This document shows, piece by piece, positions 23,505 to 39,167 of a DNA stretch of 64,000 bases. The notes below the pieces were generated by a model that had not been told where the DNA came from, did no database searches, and worked only from the letters and a program-made list of their open reading frames with translations. The translations under genes and the position numbers were made by a program. Each line of letters opens with the position of its first letter. Within the stretch, counting starts at the first letter, position 1. Source of the stretch: Rhodopirellula sp. P2 (lineage in GTDB: Bacteria > Planctomycetota > Planctomycetia > Pirellulales > Pirellulaceae); the NCBI RefSeq assembly GCF_028768465.1, contig NZ_CP118225.1, positions 7,049,001 through 7,113,000 on the forward strand. Reading direction: 5' to 3'.

Positions 23505-24832
23505 TCCGCGGTTCAGTCCCCCGCACAACCAGTCGCGAATCGATCGGTCGCGATCAGATCAGTCACGAACGGATCCGGCCCAACCAGTCGCGGAGCGACG
23601 TCAGCCGATAGCCTTGGGTTTCAACCCAAGGTCTCGTGACGCCACCCGCGCCACCCGAGTCGCAGAGTGACGGCAGCCGAAAACACGTCGCAAACACCTG
23701 TCGCCGCTCCGCGGCTGGCCGGTCTTCGTGCTGCCACTCCAAACCTCGGGTTGAAACCCGAGGCTGACGAATGTCACCGCTCCGCGGTTCAGTCCCCGGC
23801 GCAACCAGTCGCAGAGCGACGGCAGCCGGAAACACGTCGCAAACACCTGTCGCCACTCCGCGGCTTGCCGGTCTTCGTGCTGCCGCCCAAACCTCGGGTT
23901 GAAACCCGAGGCTGACAGATGTCACCGCTCCGCGGTTCAGTCCCCGACACAACCAGTCGTGGAGCGACGGCAGCCGATAGCCTTGGGTTTCAACCCAAGG
24001 TCTCGTGACGCCACCCGCGCCACCCAAGTCGTGGAGCGACGACAGCCGGAAACACGTCGCAAACATCTGTCGCCGCTCCGCGGCTGGCCGGTCTTCGTGC
24101 TGCCACTCCAAACCTCGGGTTGAAACCCGAGGCTGACGAATGTCACCGCTCCGCGGTTCAGTCTTCGGCCCAACCAGTCGCAGAGCGACGGCAGCCGATA
24201 GCCTTGGGTTTCAACCCAAGGTCTCGTGACGCCACCCGCGCCACCCAAGTCGCAGAGCGACGGCAGCTGGAGACACCTCGCAAACACCTGTCGCCGCTCC
24301 GCGGCTGGACGGTCTTCGGTGTTACCGCCCGAAACCTCGGGTTGAAACCCGAGGCTGACAGATGTCACCGCTCCGCGGTTCAGTCCCCGGCGCAACCAGT
24401 CGCAGAGCGACGGCAGCCGATAGCCTTGGGTTTCAACCCAAGGTCTCGTGACGCCACCCGCGCCACCCAAGTCGCGGAGCGACGACAGCCGGAAACACGT
24501 CGCAACACCTGTCGCCGCTCCGCGGCTGGCCGGTCTTCGGTGTTACCGCCCGAAACCTCGGGTTGAAACCCGAAGCTGACGAATGCACCGCTCCGCGGTT
24601 CAGTCTTCGGCACAATCAGTCGCGGAGCGACGGCAGCCGATAGCCTTGGGTTTCAACCCAAGGTCTCGTGACGCCACCGGCGCCACCCGAGTCGCAGAGT
24701 GACGGCAGCCGGAAACACGTCGCAAACACCTGTCGCCGCTCCGCGGCTGGCCGGTCTTCGTGCTGCCACTCCAAACCTCGGGTTGAAACCCGAGGCTGAC
24801 GAATGTCACCGCTCCGCGGTTGTTGGATCGTC
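23505..24832. repeat. Array of about 221-bp palindrome-rich repeats
   Basis: This convergent gap holds two alternating hairpin modules. CCTTGGGTTTCAACCCAAGG occurs at 23612, 23981, 24202, 24424 and 24644. The opposite-facing CCTCGGGTTGAAACCCGAGG occurs at 23744, 23892, 24113, 24335, 24556 (one mismatch) and 24776. The period is 220-222 bp; one unit has lost about 73 bp, including its first hairpin. Spacer segments share GTCGCRGAGCGACGGCAGCC and CGCCGCTCCGCGGCTGGCC. Long open frames exist on both strands, but they overlap and share repeat peptides, so I do not count them as genes. No transposase is present. Confidence 0.92.
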
Positions 24833-38430: not shown

Positions 38431-38490
38431 TCCACCGAGTCGCCCCACACCGAGCCTGCTGCCTCGGTGAACTCAACCGCGGAGAAGGCA

Positions 38491-38983
38491 ATTGAAAAAG
38501 TTAAATTGACAATTGTAAATTTCAAATTGTTGGTTGAAGGGCAGCTACTTCGTGTTTTGTAGATTTGCTTTTGCCGTCACAACAGATTTCCCAATGATGT
38601 TGCACAGTTGGATGCACTCATCGAGAAGCGGCTTGATGCGGTCATCGGAAAGCATCTCCGACTTCAGAATTAGCTTGACCCAAGTTCGCGATTCACGAAG
38701 CTCCTTCAACGCGATCCCCAGCTTGTGAACAAAGTCCTTCTTGCTTTCAGCGGCACACGCTTCGGCATAGTTTGGTGCGGGCGAAGTGCCACTTCGCACC
38801 AGCTGGCCAGCGATGTGCCGCCCCAGGCGGGTCTCCGGCAACGCTTCGACCAATTTCCCGACGCGTGTCGCGAAATCCAGTAGCCGATCTTCTAAATCTT
38901 CACCACGCTGATCCATTAGGTCGCTCGCCGGCTGGAGAACAAACAAATTTACAATTTCCAATTGTCAATTTAACTTTTTCAAT
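38491..38983. mobile_element. Putative inverted-repeat element carrying a four-helix-bundle gene
   Basis: A perfect 25-bp inverted repeat bounds this 493-bp segment: 38491-38515 (ATTGAAAAAGTTAAATTGAC then AATTG) and its exact complement at 38959-38983. Immediately inside, both ends carry AATTGTAAATTT-like sequence. The ends are AT-rich in a GC-rich neighbourhood. The only gene inside is a minus-strand four-helix-bundle protein of the type encoded in 23S rRNA intervening sequences. No obvious target-site duplication is visible. I read it as a small mobile or formerly mobile unit; the mechanism is unknown. Confidence 0.6.
38545..38916 (-). CDS. Four-helix-bundle protein, S23/IVP-like
   Basis: The 123-residue protein matches the family found in 23S rRNA intervening sequences and related to the Avd accessory protein of diversity-generating retroelements. 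Landmarks are LPETRLGRHIAGQLVRSGTS, PNYAEACAAESKKDFVHKLG, IALKELRESRTWVKLILKS and four predicted helices. Members form pentameric, positively charged barrels that may bind nucleic acid. The frame is open to a TTG at 38961, inside the right inverted repeat, but ATG 38916 (MDQRGEDLED) is the usual N-terminus. It is convergent with the SHD1 gene and lies inside perfect inverted repeats. No reverse transcriptase or rRNA gene is nearby. Confidence 0.82.
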   Translation of the reverse strand: MDQRGEDLEDRLLDFATRVGKLVEALPETRLGRHIAGQLVRSGTSPAPNYAEACAAESKKDFVHKLGIALKELRESRTWVKLILKSEMLSDDRIKPLLDECIQLCNIIGKSVVTAKANLQNTK

Positions 38984-39167
38984 GGCGTCGAGTGATGAGT
39001 ATCCCCTCCTTCATTTTGTGCAGGATCATCTGACGGACGATTGAAGCCCCAAACCCCAGTTTCGGAGACATGGTTCCCAGGAACCTGGACTGGCTTAGAA
39101 TCTAGGGCTCACGACCACGAAATGGGGTCGTTTTTCGCCAGCCCTTCTCGTCATCCGTCTGATTTGA

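Follow-up and report, generated by a model that had tools for sequence, protein, structure and literature searches.

An intergenic 493-bp unit in Rhodopirellula with inverted heptamer arms around an IVP gene, a candidate mobile element

What is a unit of one gene and two inverted arms, carrying a protein of the kind found in 23S rRNA intervening sequences (IVS), doing between two protein genes, and does it move? The unit occupies 493 bp at 38491-38983 of the window, by which we mean the whole 64-kb stretch of Rhodopirellula DNA that was analysed. The earlier note, made from the bare sequence, had read here exact 25-bp inverted repeats, AT-rich ends in GC-rich DNA and a lone internal gene of this type, and all three readings, coordinates included, proved accurate. 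The left terminal arm has an exact 25-bp core at 38491-38515 (41 nt at 90% as 38488-38528) and divides into the heptamers ATTGAAA, AAGTTAA, ATTGACA, ATTGTAA and ATTTCAA, followed by ATTG; the right terminal arm at 38959-38983 is its exact inverted copy, extends to 38946-38986 at 90%, and reads on the minus strand ATTGAAA, AAGTTAA, ATTGACA, ATTGGAA, ATTGTAA. Chance repetition is ruled out for these arms, the end pattern occurring twice in the window against an expectation of 0.00 in 100 dinucleotide shuffles, and the 100-bp intervals covering the ends have a GC content of 36-44% where most intervals around them have 50-68%. Inside lies a single minus-strand ORF (38545-38961) of 138 aa when counted from a TTG at 38961, within the right arm; the ATG at 38916 (123 aa) is the likely start rather than that TTG. 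Its product, a four-helix-bundle protein that we call IVP, matches PF05635 (E 3e-17) and TIGR02436, 'four helix bundle protein' (E 7e-26). The unit adjoins an SHD1-domain gene and a sigma-54 response regulator, and Rfam at gathering scores finds no rRNA in the window, which bears out its placement by the earlier note between two protein genes and outside rRNA; nor is any recognised recombinase, transposase or reverse transcriptase coded within the 493 bp, in keeping with the minimal element proposed there. Read as RNA, the minus strand of the unit (38480-38995) is predicted to fold with the arms as a terminal stem (-187.1 kcal/mol, z -5.2), a strength explained by the inverted arms, which require such pairing.

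The earlier note missed that the ends are made of heptamers and that this make-up is shared across the class. We compared 106 IVP loci, comprising 80 from named genomes (the best 80 of at least 579 confirmed candidates), 25 from relatives and the window, and leaving out the near-identical L022-L024, the decayed L043 and L001, a duplicate of the window; L034 and L102, which represent one Rhodopirellula solitaria locus, are both counted in all IVP-locus statistics. With score thresholds chosen by hand, here as for the lag-7 and intergenic measures below, 5' and 3' flanks match each other in inverted orientation (score at least 14) at 72 of 100 loci, six of the 106 having been set aside because their flanks were short or contained N, against 6 of 200 pairings between loci and 0 of 83 same-locus control pairings taken 1,000-1,300 bp away; 28 loci score below 14. 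Lag 7 gives the best self-match among lags 2-13 in 164/205 flanks versus 22/190 distant stretches, with a mean best lag-7 score of 15.2 near IVP genes and 4.4 at a distance (lags 14 and 21 are likewise raised). Heptamer arrays occur in 58 of the 97 intergenic stretches that adjoin an IVP gene versus 9 of 61 other intergenic stretches from the same loci, and at least one arm reaches a lag-7 score of at least 11 at 86 of 106 loci. An arm most often contains 4 or 5 full units (median 37 nt, consensus A-W-T-S-N-N-M). A plasmid set made up of 14 of 25 IVP records (cyanobacteria, Chloroflexota, Bernardetia and Treponema, with three closely related Planktothrix plasmids), which comes without control stretches, reaches a lag-7 score of 10 or more in both flanks in 14/14 and inverted scores of at least 14 in 10/14. 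Inverted heptamer arms evidently accompany IVP genes in many phyla.

The heptamer itself varies from locus to locus and is common to related IVPs, even across phyla. Flanks are shared (score at least 16) by 42 of 147 cross-phylum IVP pairs of at least 65% identity, as against 75 of 3,661 pairs of lower identity, where the phyla were assigned by hand to what are mostly metagenome-assembled genomes and some cases may be binning errors. When flanks were permuted within phyla, the observed rho of 0.154 (98 loci) was reached in 0 of 999 permutations. ATTGCAA arrays are found in 14 of 98 genomes (relatives, including G000, the 7.29-Mb genome of the window): they occur in 12 of the 18 genomes that encode a protein close to the window IVP (E<1e-30, a cut fixed after inspecting the list of IVP matches) versus 2 of the 80 without one. 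Counted the other way, a close IVP is present in 12 of 14 array-bearing genomes versus 6 of 84 without arrays (Fisher p 1.8e-9, uncorrected for kinship between genomes). The exceptions, G003 and G020, carry ends or ATTGCAA arrays, yet have no IVP match. With overlaps counted, the planctomycetes G054, G063 and G071, all with a close IVP, hold 234, 182 and 65 ATTGCAA matches.

Copies of the 25-bp end, for which the earlier note had proposed a search, lie in 75 places in G000 at up to 3 mismatches (43 forward, 32 reverse; 0 for a reversed-pattern control), forming about 33 clusters when grouped by hand. A single-copy feature is thereby ruled out, repeats that occur only once being what the earlier note had named as telling against mobility. 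G000 has only one intact IVP gene, and most of its end copies are without a gene. Its inverted end pairs span 35 to 236 bp, besides the window unit, one pair of 444 bp (L070, with no IVP match) and one of 7.3 kb that encloses ordinary genes, and the pairs displayed start with ATTG and finish with CAAT. The 30 examined G000 regions contain 17 convergent neighbouring pairs, of 35-444 bp except for the one of 7.3 kb, with no transposase between the paired ends; the six largest ORFs of the 7.3-kb pair comprise HPPK and HTTM matches and four without a Pfam match, none of them a transposase. One copy, L052, is a 236-bp unit that keeps both ends, its interior deleted down to an IVP remnant (protein 63% over 27 aa, E 1e-4; DNA 69% over 100 bp, E 3e-9), and tblastn for the IVP outside L052 gave chance-like matches of E 0.04 or weaker. 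By sequence, then, the same ends are dispersed in G000, mostly without the gene and in one copy with an IVP remnant. At the L052 site the unit is absent from G003 and G011, the pair in G004 and G006 has a different interior, and G009 has one end; the L071 unit is common to G009, G003 and G006, with only its left end retained in G004. Because those gaps contain other repeats, reading them as empty sites is only partly useful.

The ends, with neighbouring DNA, have also often been amplified as tandem arrays. Ten arrays of at least three evenly spaced copies (L057 being listed on both strands) occur in the examined G000 regions, at periods of 186 to about 450 bp. IVP genes carrying these same ends also turn up away from the window locus: in G008, in G049, which belongs to a different genus, and, decayed with stops, in G001. 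The contig with the IVP in G008 and in G001 is not the one that bears the ortholog of the gene to the right of the window unit. Both ends of the G049 element, with adjoining sequence, recur about four times in tandem around a single gene body (L025, 1089-1528 and 1877-2344; 3.6 copies of 122 bp and 4.0 of 118 bp), and one end of the G008 element is present as 2.9 tandem copies of 119 bp. Elsewhere in the window, 23586-24821 holds ten matches to the Acido-Lenti-1 RNA (RF01687), five per strand, interspersed with a CCGCGGAGCGGTGACA-type repeat that is found also in the heptamer-ended tandem arrays of the genome.

Four species (G000, G009, G006, G004) have the unit at the window locus, at exactly 493 bp; it is missing from G003, which has another insert, and from G011, which has a short gap. 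These absences rule out a conserved operon gene and run counter to the occurrence at the same locus in all relatives that the earlier note would have counted against mobility. Seven further members of the genus are uninformative on the unit because only the right-hand gene was matched in them. Flanks at the locus align as orthologous, with ordinary divergence. Inside the unit, each 60-bp stretch is 92-100% identical in all pairs of the four; in the first 60 bp outside, with gaps taken as mismatches, identity is 3-35% between the lineages G000/G009 and G006/G004, 52-68% for G000-G009 and 95-98% for G006-G004, a close pair that is no less alike in the flanks than in the element. The dS of the IVP gene is 0.052 for G009-G004 (5 differences in 99 sites) versus 0.827 for the right and 0.984 for the left neighbour, 0.156 for G000-G006 versus 0.728 and 0.938, and 0.132 for G006-G004 versus 0.267 and 0.682, the smallest contrast; IVP synonymous divergence is thus 2-19 times below that of the neighbours. 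High identity within, low IVP dS and diverged flanks together indicate that the element at this locus is younger than the lineage split, or was renewed after it. The synonymous sites are not frozen (pS of 0.74-0.83 against G049 and G008), and dN/dS among the four species is 0-0.13 over 120 core codons, with a whole-ORF dN of 0.003-0.016. A low dN/dS with synonymous sites free to vary indicates that purifying selection acts on the IVP protein.

For this locus alone, a single old insertion, made uniform by replacement with incoming copies and not by fresh jumps, falls in our judgement just short of an even chance; it does not compete with mobility elsewhere. The position shared by four species and the ordinary divergence of orthologous flanks favour it, but between lineages identity falls at the element edges, and the exchanged piece is therefore the element itself. 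A further point against it is that G003, closer to G004/G006 than to G000/G009 by right-hand-gene dS, is without the unit. The orthologous gap of G003 (L085, about 2246-2499) holds a different insert with a CAGCCTCGGGTTTCAACCCGAGG-type hairpin; the intergenic gap at the window locus seems to draw short repeats.

Cyanobacterial plasmids allow a site to be compared with and without its unit. On Aulosira laxa plasmid2 (L205) an IVP unit separates two genes with a spacing of 2 bp in L217, which is plasmid1 of the same strain and 90% identical to the L205 site; the spacing is likewise 2 bp in L218, L219 and L224, and the genes overlap in L225. Only the query's own record, among 38 that match the L205 site, covers at least 80% of it, and five others were examined. 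On Nostoc and Anabaena plasmids (L201, L203) an IVP unit sits between cas2 and cas1, genes that are 2 bp apart in the empty counterpart L223 (80% identity), and in Nostoc C057 (L213) a unit upstream of an integrase gene was compared with L220-L222. These are IVP units of other phyla, and no target duplication is seen in the three comparisons (L205; L201/L203; L213). As read by eye, the junctions place the arms within the inserted piece, which takes the place of about 33, 60-65 and 9 bp of target. On the plasmids, some copies of a given intergenic site carry a unit and others do not, with short target replacement. In L224, another gap of the L205 cluster contains an 'S23 ribosomal protein' gene with an adjoining GGGTGTA heptamer array. 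The IVP genes of the cyanobacterial plasmids L201, L203, L207, L208 and L212 are in or beside defence clusters, at positions between cas2 and cas1, between csx2 (1 kb away) and cas1, and between drmD and pglX or MmeI.

We consider it probable that the unit is a free-standing mobile element, in which an IVP oligomer would bind the heptamer arms and a copying process would insert the unit. The earlier note's suggestion of movement to DNA sites holds as far as the marks of a mobile element, which are there: dispersed ends, an IVP remnant, unrelated sites across phyla, and occupied and empty sites on plasmids. A heptamer-binding role for the IVP is something that we only infer. IVP and Avd are pentamers, TRAP binds triplets, and a sequence search for solved relatives yields only 2rld, an entry with five chains. 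An IVP oligomer might bind the heptamers of its own arms, typically 4-5 degenerate units each and inverted around one IVP gene, perhaps with one heptamer per subunit in the manner of TRAP; its substrate might be RNA with the arms paired, or single-stranded DNA. Such binding would bring the element ends together; host replication or repair enzymes could then insert the unit into gaps between genes by copying and template switching, and gene-less copies with kept ends would move in trans. The proposal fits the lack of target duplication, the loss of target and the tandem repetition of ends. Against the reading of a mobile, IVP-bound element count the 28 of 100 loci under the arm threshold and the 9 of 61 other intergenic stretches with heptamer arrays, as do the position shared by four species, the G006-G004 flanks that are as alike as the element itself, and the ends or arrays that G003 and G020 carry without an IVP match. 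With only one intact IVP gene in G000, its many ends could be run by something else. A further point against it comes from the Coxiella IVS, for which the authors report indications that no S23 protein is produced in vivo (PMC4990558).

A conventional transposase coded elsewhere might instead recognise the ends, as for MITEs, with the IVP gene a passenger. Most G000 end copies lack an IVP gene and L052 is an internally deleted copy with intact ends, as in MITEs, but the 17 convergent pairs of the 30 G000 regions have no transposase between them, no target duplication is seen in the three plasmid comparisons, and IVP accompanies such arms in many phyla even though the arm sequence varies by locus. 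We hold this explanation to be unlikely.

Distinctly unlikely, in our estimate, is retro-mobility: IVP, presumably kin to the Avd proteins of diversity-generating retroelements, would partner a reverse transcriptase that acts in trans on a stem-ended RNA. That presumed kinship, the predicted stem-ended RNA, the lack of target duplication and the presence of RVT_1 in 44 of the 60 genomes searched (one match in G000) are what this explanation has in its favour. Across the 60 genomes, IVP matches occur in 26 of the 44 with RVT_1 and 7 of the 16 without (counted by hand), with no clear association between reverse transcriptase and IVP. The seven of 33 IVP-bearing genomes that have no RVT_1 match (G029, G030, G067, G070, G074, G076 and G078; mostly drafts, 91-99% complete, with a weak IVP match of E 5e-4 in G074) argue against a required reverse transcriptase, although a divergent enzyme, or one since lost, may have acted.

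Very improbable is a resident regulator gene that does not move, with a slippage-born heptamer hairpin around its mRNA as, for example, an RNase III self-control site. Against it, the two arms of a locus resemble each other more closely than they do the arms of other loci, arms are shared across phyla, end copies are dispersed in the genome, and plasmid sites are found both occupied and empty. In its favour are slippage as a proposed source of heptamer arrays (PMC4679880, PMC4692102), the predicted fold and the purifying selection on the IVP.

Set against known systems, IVP units resemble MITEs in being short, with inverted ends and one internally deleted copy, and differ from them in that no parent transposase was seen in the examined G000 regions and no target duplication at the compared sites, and in heptamer ends that differ by locus. 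REPIN/RAYT systems consist of dispersed short palindromic pairs, and the IVP ends share this arrangement; they are unlike REPINs in their heptamer make-up and IVP partner, and no RAYT-type transposase lies between the paired ends examined. The 23S rRNA IVS lie in helices of 23S rRNA and are cut out by RNase III, and only part of them code for IVP/S23. Because its protein and stem-ended layout are those of IVS, we class the window unit as their kin: the protein family is the same, the size similar, and the terminal inverted repeats form a stem. It is unlike them in lying outside rRNA, and at 0 of 106 IVP loci were two or more of seven 23S motifs found. The equivalence drawn by the earlier note extends to protein family and layout; by location the window unit is not an IVS. 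The Coxiella IVS has 428-444 nt, a 28-bp terminal stem and an S23/IVP gene, and mobility of rRNA IVS has already been proposed (PMC4990558).

The arms share with the heptanucleotide repeats of bacteria (Beggiatoaceae TAACTGA, Xanthomonas GGGAATC and STRR) their 7-nt arrays in intergenic DNA. STRR are the heptanucleotide repeats of cyanobacteria. Tandem intergenic 7-nt units, by which such repeats are recognised, are what the window arms contain, in degenerate form. Compared by description, the known repeats differ from IVP units in being reported without an IVP-type partner protein; the words 'four helix', 'S23' and 'intervening' are absent from the main texts of PMC4679880 and PMC4692102, and titles and abstract openings, with few subscription journals covered, gave no published link between heptamer repeats and IVP. 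Bacterial heptamer repeats are known but unexplained (PMC4679880, PMC4692102), and two Xanthomonas genomes contain 70 and 75 GGGAATC pairs in convergent inverted orientation (PMC4692102). We tentatively suggest, at a little under even chances, that IVP with inverted heptamer arms constitutes a large unrecognised class of mobile elements without a transposase, whose IVP would recognise the heptamers of its own ends, with heptanucleotide repeats being largely the ends, deleted copies and tandem by-products of such elements. IVP-heptamer pairs offer ready biochemical tests. If the suggestion is right, an element of about 490 bp without a known recombinase, entering 2-bp operon gaps that include cas2/cas1, would represent mobility outside the known classes. 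The 23S rRNA IVS would then be a small subset that landed in rRNA, and the spread of IVS and the abundance of bacterial heptanucleotide repeats would have one testable answer.
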